Below are positions 6,651-46,954 of a stretch of DNA of 46,954 bases, piece by piece. Position 1 is the first letter of the stretch; each line of letters begins with the position of its first letter. The position numbers and the translations under genes are program-made. The notes under the pieces were generated by a model. The model searched no databases. It saw only the letters and a list, made by a program, of their open reading frames with translations, and was not told the DNA's origin. Origin of the DNA: a virus; IMG/VR virus record IMGVR_UViG_3300036841_000153, positions 1 to 46,954 of that record. One strand, written 5' to 3'.

Positions 6651-9089
6651 CTAGACGAAAACGAGGATCGCCACGTCCCCTTTGAGCTGGATCGTGGCGG
6701 CGGCAAACGTGTGCTGGGCGTACAGGGCCAGGGTCTGGGCGCTGCCGGTGTTGACCGTCAGGCTGCCGCCGATCGTCGGGTTGCAGAAGTCAACCGACGA
6801 CAGTCCGCCGATCCCTGCTCCGCTTGCGGTGGCGAGGGCACCGACCCGGGGAGAGCCGGACATCCGCTGGACGGAGACCGACCCCTCGTTCTGGATCTGC
6901 ATCTGCCAGTAGAGGGCACGATTCCCTGCCCCCTGGGTGATATTCCCGGACTGATCCTCCCAGAGCTTCGACCCGCCCAGAGAGACGCCGAGCAGCATCT
7001 GCCGGGACGTGCCCGAGGAGTTTGTGTAGAAGCCGTTGACGTAGATCAGGATGAAGCTGTTCGGCCCCAGAACCGGGAGCGCCTGCGAGATCAGGTTGGT
7101 GACGGCAGTGGTGTTGTTGATATCGAAGGCGGCCCGGTAGATGGTCGGCCCACCCCCGCCTCCGGCAGGCGTTTGCCAGGAGCCGTCGTCTCGGAGGAAC
7201 TTGGTGCCATCGGCCGTGCCGGAGACGGCCGCCAGCTTGGCAAGATTCGATCCGGCCAGCACCATCGAGTCGCCGACCTTGACCCAGGACATGCCCAGTG
7301 GCTGGCCCGCGTTGGCGGTGAGGACGGCGTTGTCCGCTCCGACCCCGAGCCGGTTGACCGCTCCGGCGGAGGCTCCGACGAGCAGGTCGGCCTTGGCGGT
7401 GACCGTGGACTTGTCCACCTTCGCGGCCAGGTCGGTCGGCAGGTTGAAGATGTTCGCCTGGGTCAGGTAGATCCAGTCCACACCTTCGGCGGCAACGGTG
7501 CTCGCCATCAGCACGGAGCCGTCCGGGCCGACCCCCTTGCGGACGACGGTGTTGTCGGCGGTCGCGACGAGGATGTCGCCCTTCGCGTCGAAGATCGTCG
7601 GCTGGATCCCGGTCAGGGTCTGCCAGGTTCCGTCGTCGCGGAGAAACTTGGTTCCGTCTCTCGTCCCCGAGCCGAGCGAGTCCGGGGTGACCCGGCCGAC
7701 CACGATCAGCGAGCCGTCTGTCTTCAGCACCCCTGCGGCCGAGCGGTACAGGTTTGTATCGCCCACTCCGCCGGGGCCGAACTGGAGTTGGCCCGTCCCG
7801 CTGATCCGGGCGAGGACATTGCCTCCGCTATCGACCCAGCGTTGGTAATCAACTGTCTGCGATGCAACCCCCTGCACCTGAAGGAGGCTGAAGGTCGCAG
7901 CGCCAACTCCCTGGACGACCAGCCTTCCCGCCCCAGAGCGATAGAAGACGACATCGGCCACGTTCGTCCCGTCCCCCCAGCCCAACTGACCATCGACTCG
8001 GGCGGTGAAACGAGTCTGCGCTTCGGCGGCAACCAAGGTGTCGAAAACCGTGTCGGTGCTGATACCCCCGTAGATCCGCAGCCGGGACTTCAACGATGCA
8101 GAACCGAGCGCAAGCATGTTCGCTGCGGAGCGAGCGAGCACGACATCGGCCGCAGCGTTGCCCGGCCCCCAGGACATCGCGCCCAGATTGCTGAGCTGCC
8201 AGCGGTTCTGGGTGTCGGCCGTGACCTGGGCGGCAGCGATCAGCCGACCGCTTGGGCCAGTGAAGAGGTTGCGAACGTCCGTCGCCGGAGCGAGTAATGG
8301 CACCGTCGAGAGGTCGGCAACCGGCACCTGCCAGCTTCCGTCATCGCGCAGGAACTTGCTGCCGTTCGGAGTGCCGCTCACGGCCGCGAGCTTGGCCAGG
8401 TTCGACCCGGCCAGGATCATTGCGTCCCCGACCTTCGCCCACCTCAGCCCGGTCGCCTGGGAGGAGTCGGCAACGGGAACGGTGTCGTTCGCCCCGACCG
8501 CCAGCCGGGCGGCGGTGTCCGCTCCAGTGCCGACCGCCAGGTCGCCCTTCGCGTCCCAGATCACGTCGGTCGAGACCTGGGTTCCCCCTCCGCCTGAACC
8601 GGGGGGACCCTGCGGACCCTGCGGGCCTTGCGGACCCTGCGGGCCGAGCAGGACGACCCCGGTGAACACCCAGCCCGGGGCTTGCTTCTCCCAGACCTTG
8701 CCGTTCACCCCGTCCAGGTAGAGGGTGCCGATGATGTCCGCCGAGGGAGTCGGATCCCCGGTGCCGTACAGCCAGTTGTCTCCCGGTGTTCCTGCCGGAC
8801 CAGTCGCGCCCGCCGGACCCTGGGAGCCGGTCGAGCCAGTCGGTCCGGCAGGACCTTGGGCGCCGGGTGCTCCTTGCGGACCTTGAGATCCGGCTGCTCC
8901 TGGAGATCCAGTCGCTCCTGCAGGTCCCTGCGCCCCCGTGTCCCCTTTCGGTCCCTGCGCCCCCGGGGTCCCTGGATCACCGGTCGGTCCGGTCGGCCCC
9001 TGGACCCCTTGGGTTCCTTGCGGCCCTGGAGGCCCTGTGGGTCCAGTCGGACCAGGCGGGCCTGCACCCGGAGTGACGGTCGCGGTCAT
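6651..9089 (-). CDS. Collagen-like tail fibre protein (812 aa)
   Basis: Residues about 8-105 are an almost uninterrupted Gly-X-Y collagen repeat; a second short G-P-Q run lies near 148-168. The middle contains repeated modules: three copies of (S/T)KFLRDDG(S/T)WQ, two copies of an [13 protein letters not shown] segment, and several (F/W)DAKGD(I/L) repeats, suggesting a trimeric beta-structured shaft. The last 130 residues form a beta domain shared with the 236-residue protein at 786-1496. A GGAGGGAC ribosome site precedes the ATG. Likely a receptor-binding fibre. Unusually it lies between portal and scaffold genes. Confidence 0.88.
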
Positions 9090-16433: not shown

Positions 16434-16813
16434 TCACCGTCATCACCAAGGGCAAGGTCGTCCAGGTCGAGCCTGACCTGCAGAACGAGAAGGACATCCT
16501 CGAGGTCGCCCAGGCGCTGATCGAGGTCTACGGCTGGAACAACACGAAGAAGGATGCCTACACCCCCTCCTCGGAGAAGCAGGGCTACACCCTGCACGAC
16601 GCGATCGGGGAGGCCGGCGTCCGAATCAGTGCCGATCCGGGCGTGGCCAACGGCACCAAGGACGCCTTCGGCTTGCGCCAGCAGGCGATCGAGCTCGTGG
16701 AGGCGCATACCCCGATGCGGCAGGGTGTGCGCCTCTCCGACCAGCAGGCGAACGACGCCGCCAGGGACGCGGCGCAGATCATCCGGATCCTGGAGAAGGC
16801 GAGGGCAGCATGA
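16430..16813 (+). CDS. Hypothetical early protein (127 aa)
   Basis: Mixed alpha/beta, acidic, with an opening strand pair (MITVITKGKVVQVEPDL) and a long C-terminal helix (LSDQQANDAARDAAQIIRIL). No family recognised. Coupled to both neighbours by ATGA overlaps, so co-translated with the HicA-like-domain protein. Confidence 0.75.
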   Translation: MITVITKGKVVQVEPDLQNEKDILEVAQALIEVYGWNNTKKDAYTPSSEKQGYTLHDAIGEAGVRISADPGVANGTKDAFGLRQQAIELVEAHTPMRQGVRLSDQQANDAARDAAQIIRILEKARAA

Positions 16814-17013
16814 ACAAGCGCGAGCTGAACGCACTGATCAAGAAGGTGAAGGCGAAGCCCCGCTCGGTGTACGGGACCGGCTCGGTGATCCTCACCTGCA
16901 CGAAGCAGGAGTGGGACGAGACGCTCGACTTTCTCGAGCAGCTGGACGGCTATCTGCCGCCGGCGCTCGAGCGCGTCCTGCAGGGCGGGAAGGTGCTGCA
17001 ATCCCGCAGCTGA
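16810..17013 (+). CDS. Small hypothetical protein (67 aa)
   Basis: Basic N-terminal helix (NKRELNALIKKVKAKP), a short strand pair, and a helix QEWDETLDFLEQLDGYLPP. No family recognised. The stop lies five bases before the tmRNA 5' end, so the tmRNA may be processed from the same transcript. Confidence 0.72.
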   Translation: MNKRELNALIKKVKAKPRSVYGTGSVILTCTKQEWDETLDFLEQLDGYLPPALERVLQGGKVLQSRS

Positions 17014-17018
17014 AACGA

Positions 17019-17341
17019 GGGGGCGAAATGGTTTCGACGCTGGCGGGGAGCCGCCAAGAGGAGCGAGCCGGGGTGGCAGCGAGGCCCCGTAAAACACGCT
17101 GCATCCGACAACTGGCACACCAACGCCAAAGTCACGGCCACGGACCGAAGGGTTCGGGGTCGACGTACTCACCGCATGACGCGCCTGCACGGCATCAGGA
17201 CCGCTGCAGTGCCGTAACGATTCCTGACTTCACCGGGTTGGAGCGCCGCTGCCGTCCCGGTCGGAGTACCAAGTGCGGCTGCGCTCGGAGAGCCTCTGGT
17301 AGGGCCGCTCGTGGACCCGGGTTCGAGTCCCGGCGCCTCCA
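17019..17341 (+). ncRNA. ssrA: Transfer-messenger RNA (tmRNA), phage-encoded
   Basis: The 5' end GGGGGCGAAATGGTTTCGACG has the conserved tmRNA D-loop-like motif. The first seven bases (17019-17025) pair with CGCCTCC at 17334-17340 (one G-U), and a canonical T-arm CCGGG-TTCGAGT-CCCGG lies at 17317-17333, followed by discriminator A at 17341; CCA is not encoded. The length of 323 bases is short for the family. The tag frame is not certain: the only nearby frame that stops early ends in ...GVDVLTA at a TGA (17177-17179), with the possible resume codon about 17147. Function: ribosome rescue and proteolysis tagging. Confidence 0.88.
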
Positions 17342-17359
17342 TCGACCGAAAGGAGAACG

Positions 17360-17776
17360 GTGATCATCGTCTACCGCTACAAGCACGCCAAGCGTCCTGA
17401 CGGGCACTTGTCGTTCGACCTGCACGCCGGCGCCTCGATCCTCCGCTACACCGAATACTGGAACTCGGACAAAGGCTGGGAGATCATCTGCGACGTTCTC
17501 TCAGACACGTCAATGTCGGTGGAGCGCCGGCACTTCTTCCTCTGTGGGACCGGCACTCGTCTGGACGCTCTCGGTGACGAAGCCTCCCTGTACTTCGTCG
17601 ACGCCTTCGAGGCCCAAGGCAAGGGATACATCTCCTACCTGTTCGAGACAACCCACCTGCCGGAGACGCTGCGGCTCGAGCTGGACGCGAAGTGGAAGCC
17701 GCGCCCGGCGCCGAAGATCGACGAGATGGGCCGCCGGCAGCGGACGTTCGCGAAGCCAAGGGCGGTGGAACAATGA
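17360..17776 (+). CDS. Hypothetical protein (138 aa)
   Basis: GTG start with AAGGAGAACG just upstream, 18 bases after the tmRNA. Beta-rich N-terminal part with several Tyr/Trp residues (IVYRYKHAKRPDGHLSFDLH), one Cys near residue 43 and one near 61, and a basic disordered C-terminus. No family recognised. Coupled by ATGA to the ParB-like gene. Confidence 0.7.
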   Translation: MIIVYRYKHAKRPDGHLSFDLHAGASILRYTEYWNSDKGWEIICDVLSDTSMSVERRHFFLCGTGTRLDALGDEASLYFVDAFEAQGKGYISYLFETTHLPETLRLELDAKWKPRPAPKIDEMGRRQRTFAKPRAVEQ

Positions 17777-18624
17777 GCTCGAACAGTGACAACGAACGGC
17801 GGCGGAAAGAGCTGGAGGGGAGCGAGTATCCGTTCACGCTGGAGATGGTCGGACTGCCCAGCCTGTTCATGGATGAGCGCTACCAGCGGCCGGTCGACGA
17901 GAGCTGGGTGCAGAAGAACATCGTCGACCAGTACGACCCCGGGCAGATCGGCGCCCTGGACGTATCAGCACGGGCGAGCGGCGAGTATGCGGTGCTCGAC
18001 GGCGGCCGGCGCTGGACCGGGCTCTCGATCATCGGCACCAAGACGGCGCCCTGCTGCGTCCACTACGGGATGAGCGTTGCCGACGAGGCCCGCTTCTTCT
18101 ACAAGAAGAACAAGGATCGCCAGAACGTCCACCCCTACTACCAGATCCGCGCCCGGATCGTGATGGGCGAGCGGAAGGCGCGCAGGATCAACAAGATCGT
18201 CTCCGAGTGCGGCTACCGGCTGTACATCGCCTCTTCGACAGAGAACGACATCCCCGCGATCGGGGCGGTGGAACGAGCGTTCGAGATGTCCTCGATCGCC
18301 CGGGAGGAGTCGCTGACCCCGACCTTGACGACGATGCGGCGTTGCTTCCTCGGCCGGGACAAAGGCACAGACGGGCAGATCATTCGCGGGCTCAGTCGCT
18401 TCTTCCAGAACTACTACGACGACGAGATCGACCTGGACACCCTGGACAAGCTGCTGACCGAGATCGGGCCTTCCTTGCTGATCGGCCGGGCTCAGGATCA
18501 GCTTGCCTCCGGCCGGGGCGGAGGCTCACACGCGGCGGCGATCGCCCGGATCCTGCTCGACCTGTACAACCGAAGCGGGGCGAAGAAGCTGTACCGGCCG
18601 CACTTCGACGGACGCAAGGAGTGA
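17773..18624 (+). CDS. ParB/Srx-like nuclease-domain protein (283 aa)
   Basis: Residues about 20-110 have the ParB N-terminal pattern: DERYQRPVDESWV, then DPGQIGALDVSARA, and the core strand-helix YAVLDGGRRWTGL, where the Gly-Arg-Arg is the usual nucleotide or DNA-contacting turn (G-x-x-R). The C-terminal 170 residues are helical. In phages such proteins (DUF6551-like as I recall) are solitary, not part of a partition pair; no ParA is present. The ATG at 17773 is set by the ATGA overlap. Confidence 0.75.
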   Translation: MSSNSDNERRRKELEGSEYPFTLEMVGLPSLFMDERYQRPVDESWVQKNIVDQYDPGQIGALDVSARASGEYAVLDGGRRWTGLSIIGTKTAPCCVHYGMSVADEARFFYKKNKDRQNVHPYYQIRARIVMGERKARRINKIVSECGYRLYIASSTENDIPAIGAVERAFEMSSIAREESLTPTLTTMRRCFLGRDKGTDGQIIRGLSRFFQNYYDDEIDLDTLDKLLTEIGPSLLIGRAQDQLASGRGGGSHAAAIARILLDLYNRSGAKKLYRPHFDGRKE

Positions 18625-35452: not shown

Positions 35453-35550
35453 AGCCGATCAGGATGAACAGCGCGATCAAGCTCGACGATGGCCGCCAGC
35501 GCTTGGTCTATCGCTGCGTCGGCGGCTGTCGTCCGACGCTCGATGTATAA
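35368..35550 (+). CDS. Zinc-ribbon-like small protein, start uncertain (60 aa)
   Basis: CHECGRVW and, 30 residues later, RCVGGCRP are a CxxC..CxxxC pair. GTG 35368 would start it but overlaps the resolvase-like gene by 85 bases; the shorter GTG at about 35449 would lose the first pair. Supported only by the cysteine pattern. Confidence 0.35.
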   Translation: MAQGKAPGRVTCYSATCHECGRVWLSAVKPIRMNSAIKLDDGRQRLVYRCVGGCRPTLDV

Positions 35551-35626
35551 CTCGTCGTCAACAAAAGCCGACGCGCCGGCGGCGGAGTGGCCGCCGCCGA
35601 GCGCAGGCACCGGAAAGGTGGTTCCG

Positions 35627-36775
35627 ATGCAAGATCAGGGTAACTCACGCTCCCGTCAGCAGTGGACGGGGGTATACGACGCCGGCAGCCAGTGGTGGTT
35701 CCGCATCACGCCTGAGCCTGGAGCCCCACAACAGCGGGTCTACGTCTCGAAGGCGGACTACCCGACCCAGAAAGATGTCTGGCTCTACAAGGAGGAGCTC
35801 TCGGGACGGGCCCCGGGAGAGGTTCTGAACGTCCACAGCAACATCCGCTTCCGGGAGTTCGCCCAGGACGTGATCGAGAACCGGCGCCCGAAGGCGAACA
35901 TCCGCACGCGGGGCCACTACCACGGCCTGATCGAGCGGTATGTCGAGACTCCGCTTCTGCGAATGAAGGTGCGGGATGTCCGGGCAGAACACGTCCGCAA
36001 GTACGTCCTGCTCTCGATGCGGAAGCGGGGCTTGGCCGGCAAGACGATCGGGCAGACGATCGACCTGGTGAAGGCAGTCTTTGATGAGGCGGAGCGGGAC
36101 GGAATCCGACGCGACAACCCGGTGCGGAGGCTGAGCCCGAACGAGAAGGACTCACGTCAGCCGCAGAACAAGCAGCGGATGCTAACCGAGAACGAGCGTG
36201 GCAACTACCTGAACGAGGCGATCGAGAAGTACCAGGCCGTGATCGCGGTCATGCTCCTTGCCGGTCTCAGGATCAGCGAGGCGCTCGGCCTCCAGTGGGG
36301 AGACATCGACTGGGAGGCGCACGAGCTCCACGTTGCCCGGCAGGTGGACCCGATCAAGAGACGGACCGGGGTTGTGACCTTCACCGACACCAAGACGGAG
36401 CAGGCGGTGCGGAGCGTGCCGATGTCGGACGAGCTCGAGCAGATCCTGCGCCGGCACATGAAGGCGGTCCGGGTTCCGTTCGGCAAGGCTCGTCTGTTCG
36501 AGCTCTCCCACAATGCGATCCAGCAGTACGTGGTCGCCCATGCCCGCAGGCAGGGACTCGTCCGTGAAGGGGAGGCAGAGAAGCTGACGCCCCATACCCT
36601 GCGCCACAACTACGGGAGCGACCTCTTGCACCGTGGCGTGCCGCTGACGATCGTCTCCAAGTACATGGGGCACGCCAACGTGAAGATCACCGCCGAGGTC
36701 TACTCGCACGTGACCGACGACTCGGCGGCGAAGGCGCTCGTACTGCGCGCGGTCAACGGCAGTAGTCAAGGTTAG
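35627..36775 (+). CDS. int: Tyrosine integrase (382 aa)
   Basis: Site-specific recombinase. ATG 35627 follows GGAAAGGTGG. N-terminal arm-binding-like domain (residues 1-60) and SAM-like core-binding domain (about 70-165). Catalytic residues: R215 (LLAGLRISEALG), K256, H323 and R326 (TPHTLRHNYG), H349 (MGHANVKIT), nucleophile Y359. Drives integration and, with an accessory protein, excision. Its last codons contain two of the repeats proposed as arm sites, so attP follows directly. Confidence 0.93.
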   Translation: MQDQGNSRSRQQWTGVYDAGSQWWFRITPEPGAPQQRVYVSKADYPTQKDVWLYKEELSGRAPGEVLNVHSNIRFREFAQDVIENRRPKANIRTRGHYHGLIERYVETPLLRMKVRDVRAEHVRKYVLLSMRKRGLAGKTIGQTIDLVKAVFDEAERDGIRRDNPVRRLSPNEKDSRQPQNKQRMLTENERGNYLNEAIEKYQAVIAVMLLAGLRISEALGLQWGDIDWEAHELHVARQVDPIKRRTGVVTFTDTKTEQAVRSVPMSDELEQILRRHMKAVRVPFGKARLFELSHNAIQQYVVAHARRQGLVREGEAEKLTPHTLRHNYGSDLLHRGVPLTIVSKYMGHANVKITAEVYSHVTDDSAAKALVLRAVNGSSQG

Positions 36776-45351: not shown

Positions 45352-46860
45352 CTACTGACCTTCCCAGGGGAGCTTGCCGCTGGTCGTGGTGCCCGACTGG
45401 TCATAGACGCTCGTGCTCGAGCCCTTCCGGTTCGAGTCGGAGCGGCGCTTGCGCTCCTTGCCCTGCTCGGTCATATGCCCTCTGCCGTCCGTCTTGTAGG
45501 AACCGTAGACGTTCTCCCAGTAGGTCTGGCCGTCCTTGCCGAGCGGCTTGCCGGTGACGGAGTTGACCCAGACCACCCGCCCGCTCTCAACGGTGCGAAG
45601 CGGTGCGGAGCCGTACTTGCTCGTGCCAGTCGTTCCCGGTTGCTTCTTCGGGTTGGCGCCGCCGGCGACCGTCACCTGGTTGTTGGCCGGATTCCAGGAG
45701 GCGATCCGGCCGTCCCCGAGCACCACCTTCACCGGCTTGGTCGGAGTCGGCGCCGCTGCCCCGGTCAGCCTCACCCGATCGCCGGTCAGCTTGTCGACCA
45801 GATAACGGCCCGTCTTGTCGGAGCCGACAACGATCATCCGGGCTGCCTTCGCCTTCGTCGCATCGTCGGTCGCCTTCTGCTGTTTGATCAGTCCTTCCTG
45901 GACCGCCGCCGTGTAGGCGGGGTCGACGATCGGTTTGCCGGTTTTCTTGTCCGTGACCGGATGGATCCCGGTGGTGGTGCCTTCGTAGACGTAGCCGTGC
46001 GGGTCGTACTTCGTCCGCTGCTCGGCCACGCTCTGCCAGTAGGCGAGCCGGCCTTGCGTCGTCGGCGCGTTCGGCCCGACGATCTTCGCCTGGTTGGAGC
46101 GGATCGTGTCGGAGCGGTTCAGGTTGTACTCGCGCACCTGCTCGTTGTAGGTGCGGTCGGCCTGAGCCTTGTCGTCGGCGCGGCCCTGGAGATCGAGCAG
46201 AAGCTGGGGGATCGTCGCCATGATCGAGCTCTGCTGGTCGGCCAGCTGGCGGGCGAGCTGGGCGCCGAGCATTGACTGCTGCTGCTGGCCGGTCATCGAG
46301 GCGAAGGTCGGCTCCAGCGCGGCCCGGGTCTGGGCTGCAGCCCGAGAGGCGATCAGGTTGTCCAGGTAGGAGATCCCGGTGCCGTAGGCGGCTCCGCCTG
46401 CGCCCTTGCCCTGCTGGGTCAGGTTCAGATCGGAGGAGGTCGGCAGTGGCCCGGCGCTCTTCATCTGGCTGGCCACGCTCGCGGCCTGCTGCTGGCCGGA
46501 TTGGGTCAGGCCGGTGCCGGCCCAGTTGGCGATGTTCTTCGCGGACTTGACCTCCGGCCCGTAGGCGTTGCCGACCATCCCCGAGATCCCGCCCATCTCC
46601 TGGGCGTAGAAGTTGGTCAGCCCGCTGATGTAGCCACTGCCCATCTGGGAGCGGCGGTTGATGATGTCGGCCGCGCTCTGCAGCTGGGGGTTGATCACTC
46701 CCCACGCCTGCTGCAGGGTGGTCGGGCTGATCCCGGGGATGTTCAGTCCCTGAGGCAAGACGGAGGCGAACGGGTTGCCGCCAACGTTTGCCCCGACCGG
46801 TGCTGCGGGTTGTTTCGGCGGAAGCGTCCAGGGCTGGGGTGCCCAGGGATAGGTCGCCAT
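45352..46860 (-). CDS. Internal virion / DNA ejection protein (502 aa)
   Basis: ATG 46860. N-terminus Pro/Gly-rich (MATYPWAPQPWTLPPKQPAA), a helical Gln/Ser-rich domain (ADIINRRSQMGSGYISGLTN onward, residues 60-230), then beta/helix segments with a VVWVNSVTGKPLGKDGQTY element and a Ser/Thr-rich basic end. Its own stop abuts the 1654-residue gene start (TAG GTG), so the two are coupled. Both ends of the contig cut just after its start. Sequence family not recognised beyond internal virion style. Confidence 0.75.
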   Translation of the reverse strand: MATYPWAPQPWTLPPKQPAAPVGANVGGNPFASVLPQGLNIPGISPTTLQQAWGVINPQLQSAADIINRRSQMGSGYISGLTNFYAQEMGGISGMVGNAYGPEVKSAKNIANWAGTGLTQSGQQQAASVASQMKSAGPLPTSSDLNLTQQGKGAGGAAYGTGISYLDNLIASRAAAQTRAALEPTFASMTGQQQQSMLGAQLARQLADQQSSIMATIPQLLLDLQGRADDKAQADRTYNEQVREYNLNRSDTIRSNQAKIVGPNAPTTQGRLAYWQSVAEQRTKYDPHGYVYEGTTTGIHPVTDKKTGKPIVDPAYTAAVQEGLIKQQKATDDATKAKAARMIVVGSDKTGRYLVDKLTGDRVRLTGAAAPTPTKPVKVVLGDGRIASWNPANNQVTVAGGANPKKQPGTTGTSKYGSAPLRTVESGRVVWVNSVTGKPLGKDGQTYWENVYGSYKTDGRGHMTEQGKERKRRSDSNRKGSSTSVYDQSGTTTSGKLPWEGQ

Positions 46861-46954
46861 CTACCCCACCCCTGCCGCATACAGGGCCTGTTGCAAGGCC
46901 CGGGAGTAGGCATCCTGCTCGGCGGCGATGATCTGCGCCTGGGCGGCCATCTTC
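46828..46954. repeat. Terminal direct repeat, right copy (contig closure overlap)
   Basis: Exact second copy of bases 1-127. It contains the start of the 502-residue virion gene and the 3' end of the next gene, the complete copy of which lies at 34-786. Remove one copy when counting genes. Confidence 0.95.

Follow-up and report, generated by a model that had tools for sequence, protein, structure and literature searches.

The window, by which we mean the whole 46,954-base IMG/VR viral record that was analyzed, contains a single RNA gene according to ARAGORN and Rfam, namely a tmRNA gene. When the window was scanned, Rfam RF00023 matched positions 17019-17344 (+) over the full model (1-374) with 95.1 bits (E 6.3e-36), against a gathering score of 47 bits, and the ARAGORN tmRNA prediction at 17019-17341 agrees with this locus. 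These whole-length matches confirm that 17019-17341 is a real one-piece tmRNA gene; a first-pass annotation had proposed a complete phage-encoded tmRNA here, and the covariance-model score bears it out. That annotation had also called the gene reduced in length, which is correct relative to most bacterial tmRNAs (roughly 350-360 nt) but not relative to predicted viral tmRNAs, which span 271-489 nt (including some permuted genes) and among which 323 nt is unexceptional for a phage. The features of the locus, together with the integrase gene, are as follows.

16810-17013, plus strand: 67-aa reading frame upstream of the tmRNA gene (gene calling), ending 5 nt before it
17019-17341, plus strand: one-piece tmRNA (ssrA) gene, 323 nt without an encoded CCA (Rfam RF00023, ARAGORN)
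17019-17025, plus strand: 5' strand of the acceptor stem, GGGGGCG, with its partner CGCCUCC at 17334-17340
17069-17102, plus strand: PK1, pairing CGGGG (17069-17073) with CCCCG (17085-17089) and GCAGCG (17076-17081) with CGCUGC (17097-17102)
17114-17179, plus strand: tag reading frame GTPTPKSRPRTEGFGVDVLTA, from the GGC resume codon to the stop TGA at 17177-17179 (ARAGORN)
17138-17159, plus strand: H5-like hairpin CCACGGACC-GAAG-GGUUCGGGG, 8 of 9 pairs (read from the sequence)
17189-17227, plus strand: probable pseudoknot, ACGGCA (17189-17194) with UGCCGU (17210-17215) and UCAGGA (17195-17200) with UCCUGA (17222-17227)
17232-17279, plus strand: probable pseudoknot, ACCGGG (17232-17237) with CCCGGU (17256-17261) and GCCGC (17245-17249) with GCGGC (17275-17279)
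17317-17333, plus strand: T-arm, CCGGG-UUCGAGU-CCCGG (ARAGORN and sequence inspection)
17360-17776, plus strand: 138-aa downstream reading frame, with a GTG start 18 nt past the tmRNA gene and a ribosome-binding site, AAAGGAG, ahead of it
35543-36775, plus strand: tyrosine integrase (Pfam PF00589, E 1.2e-24; phrog_1), 18 kb from the tmRNA gene

The tmRNA gene as phage cargo

Bases 1-127 of the window are identical to bases 46828-46954, and the first and last 127 bases of its relative G006 (46,861 bases) are likewise identical; each assembly therefore appears complete and circular, at about 46.8 kb. Because the repeat measures 127 bases in both, it is more likely an assembler overlap than a repeat of biological origin. 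The IMG/VR record of the window is not described as complete, despite this terminal repeat. The minus strand carries terminase, portal, head and tail-fibre genes, and this structural gene set, together with the tyrosine integrase, indicates a temperate tailed phage. The tail-fibre gene (6651-9089, minus strand) has several collagen-like tail protein matches and is much longer than its G006 counterpart.

The tmRNA gene is tightly packed among genes of the same strand in an operon-like array. The 67-aa upstream frame has no Pfam or PHROG match. One gene past the tmRNA, at 17773-18624 (plus strand), lies a ParB-like/DUF6551 protein with 25-32% identity to Gordonia, Mycobacterium and Staphylococcus phage proteins. 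A consensus promoter search of the tmRNA region found none, and terminator-like matches in the region occur at chance level, with none adjoining the gene; the tmRNA is therefore probably cut from a polycistronic transcript. Phages and islands integrate at ssrA (PMC3146451; PMC9004378), and the locus might accordingly be read as an attachment-site remnant derived from host ssrA. We consider this extremely improbable, since both ends of the gene are present between closely spaced phage genes, 18 kb from the integrase, and the phage holds no second, partial copy. A partial 3' fragment beside the integrase is what a remnant would look like, and what we found is a complete gene. The first-pass description of a carried gene far from the integrase is thus upheld.

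G006 is collinear with the window, with 78% (tblastn), 83% and 81% identity in terminase, portal and capsid, respectively, and it lacks a tmRNA; for the five genes nearest the tmRNA, it has at most one weak homologue (31% over 84 residues). The absence from G006 and the variable surroundings together mark the tmRNA as accessory cargo. Other relatives also lack a tmRNA, but all of these are fragments in which the equivalent place was not shown to be covered. G006 carries a tRNA-Gln(CTG) gene (L018:3542-3614), about 3.6 kb from its terminase, in a region that corresponds to 19.2-19.4 kb of the window, which has no tRNA gene. Comparison of the neighboring proteins with viral contigs yielded no relatives and no tmRNA-bearing orthologue, and searches of phage records with the tmRNA region, portal, capsid and one upstream protein gave no useful relatives. 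Scans with the portal protein for a host, across genome contigs and across 296 genomes from the phylum (Actinomycetota) to which a Gaiellales bacterium belongs, found nothing. Only at its conserved tRNA-like ends does the tmRNA resemble cellular genomes. There the similarity is about 80-82% across 65 nt for the phylum just named (Actinomycetota) and 92-97% across about 30 nt for the phylum that includes a Kofleriaceae bacterium; diverse anaerobes have its 5' 21-mer in common. As judged from these alignments, such end similarities mark no host lineage.

The tRNA-like domain, PK1 and the tag

The tRNA-like ends are the best-conserved portion of the gene. All seven pairs of the acceptor stem form, among them G3:U70, the alanine identity pair; with the discriminator A at 17341, the stem is of the alanine type, and a D-loop is present. 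The acceptor stem and T-arm are intact, as had been noted from the outset. The discriminator is followed by TCG, so that CCA, which is not encoded, must be added post-transcriptionally. These conserved ends invite the idea that the phage RNA is a decoy or inhibitor, which would bind host SmpB or alanyl-tRNA synthetase and thereby block host tmRNA. Mycobacteriophage DS6A carries a sequence consisting of little more than the tRNA-like domain, and a molecule of a similar kind is a strong tmRNA inhibitor that may act by titrating SmpB (PMC4131195). The gene described here shares a phage-borne tRNA-like domain with the DS6A type; unlike it, our gene retains an mRNA-like domain and pseudoknots, and PK1, the resume codon and the tag would all be needless in a decoy. 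We therefore regard this role as unlikely.

PK1 lies 5' of the resume codon, as expected of a member of RF00023; its pairs are identical in the Rfam alignment, and a comparable stability was reached in none of 1500 dinucleotide-preserving shuffles. ARAGORN places the resume codon GGC at 17114, 11 nt past PK1 and with an A at position -4; the spacing is that of E. coli tmRNA. The resulting tag has 21 codons, and its hydrophobic and small C-terminal residues, -VLTA, followed by a stop, fit RF00023, although the ending is atypical; an ending of this kind has a chance probability of about 0.002 per frame. The frame is further supported by a viral tmRNA that is identical over 29 nt at the 3' end and whose ordinary tag, GTTSYALAA, has the same Gly-Thr start (GGC-ACA). 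Downstream of the resume point, the other two frames, one without any stop up to the gene end and one of 33 codons ending in -AAVP and a stop, were rejected as tags. The first-pass annotation gave the same stop and the same C-terminus, GVDVLTA, but called the tag unclear; with the resume codon placed, it is less so.

An H5-like hairpin lies entirely within the tag frame and is contained, with one internal mismatch, in the minimum free energy (MFE) fold. Standard tmRNAs have their stop codon within or close to the H5 loop, and the hairpin inside the tag sets our gene apart from them.

The downstream region and its folding

The RF00023 alignment is poor between the tag and the closing helix, where about 100 nt of the gene occupy the position that PK2-PK4 normally take. 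This segment can form two tandem pseudoknots, which in our model probably stand in for PK2-PK4. An equally stable tandem pair occurred in 12 of 1500 shuffles and in 9 of 794 random windows of the phage genome, and against this background the downstream pseudoknots are suggestive rather than proven. The plain MFE fold showed no excess stability (z -0.39), which we count neither for nor against the structure because MFE folding is blind to pseudoknots. The search for pseudoknots and a resume codon thus returned PK1, the resume codon and two probable downstream pseudoknots, and does not refute the proposed tmRNA.

The G3:U70 tRNA-like domain, PK1, the 11-nt spacer, the resume codon and the tag frame make the gene similar to one-piece bacterial tmRNAs (RF00023), and the two downstream pseudoknots, if they form, would be a further likeness, while the short downstream region and the missing CCA distinguish it from the standard form. 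The shortened 3' half, the long and atypical tag, the poor fit of the middle to the model and the absence from G006 would also be consistent with a captured host ssrA gene in decay, carried as neutral cargo nearing loss, with the long tag and short pseudoknot region as signs of that decay. However, not one pair is broken in the acceptor stem, T-arm or PK1, and the tag end -VLTA is still degron-like, which makes decay very unlikely.

Comparison with known tmRNAs and proposed function

A minority of phages are known to carry tmRNAs: one survey found them in 402 of 18,146 phage genomes (PMC9004378), mycobacteriophages and Bacillus phage G carry them (PMC4131195), and they are known from huge phages (PMC7162821). 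Tag length and ending differ among viral tmRNAs, and the rarity implied by the first-pass annotation was overstated. Our phage resembles mycobacteriophages Bxz1 and Wildcat, Bacillus phage G and methylophage Melnitz in carrying a complete ssrA gene as cargo; unlike these phages, it is temperate, about 47 kb in size and from an uncultivated group, and we detected no sequence kinship with their tmRNAs beyond the conserved ends. In 74 cellular tmRNAs with the same 5' 21-mer, all predicted tags have 8-16 aa and end in AA, unlike the 21-aa tag ending in -LTA. Among 57 tmRNA predictions from viral contigs, tags have 8-24 aa and end in AA in 49, in another residue plus A in four (AVA, ANA, AYA, MVA) and otherwise in four. 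These contigs were selected for end motifs that they have in common, and near-duplicates are among them, which makes the counts no more than a guide. By these predictions, the tag appears to lie at the edge of the viral range and has parallels; it is not unprecedented.

We consider it likely that the gene is an intact accessory phage one-piece tmRNA that is used with host SmpB in trans-translation and bears a tag ending in -VLTA. We found no SmpB encoded in the phage, and since CCA is also missing, the tmRNA must rely on host enzymes and host SmpB. From these absences and established tmRNA biology, we infer the following course: the tmRNA would be transcribed together with the neighboring genes and excised by host RNase P and 3' nucleases, host enzymes would add CCA and charge it with alanine, and host SmpB would bind it. 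Trans-translation would then free ribosomes stalled in infection and append the tag.

Clp-type proteases probably still degrade proteins that bear this tag, though perhaps with lower efficiency than for -LAA, and Thr in place of Ala at the second-last position may weaken recognition by ClpXP. With the engineered endings LVA, AAV and ASV, degradation still takes place but becomes progressively less efficient (PMC11003136; see also PMC9382460). It is doubtful, yet conceivable, that ribosome rescue is uncoupled from destruction because ClpXP reads the long -VLTA tag poorly; if so, truncated phage proteins would be spared or the targets of degradation changed. As the first-pass annotation suggested, the tmRNA could plausibly rescue ribosomes or tag proteins on its own terms; similar speculation on the function of phage tmRNAs has already been published (PMC9004378). 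Should the tag prove a weak degron, such phages would offer a natural test of what a phage gains from ssrA, ribosome rescue or protein destruction. The locus adds a complete and structurally convincing tmRNA from a mid-sized temperate phage whose group is uncultivated, and its tag lies at the limit of the observed range.

Non-AA tag endings were also predicted in viral contigs L178 and L166, which may be misframed predictions. In viral contigs L141 and L181, the predicted tag is GNSLAHNVHIRAG, with a Gly ending unlike a Clp degron.
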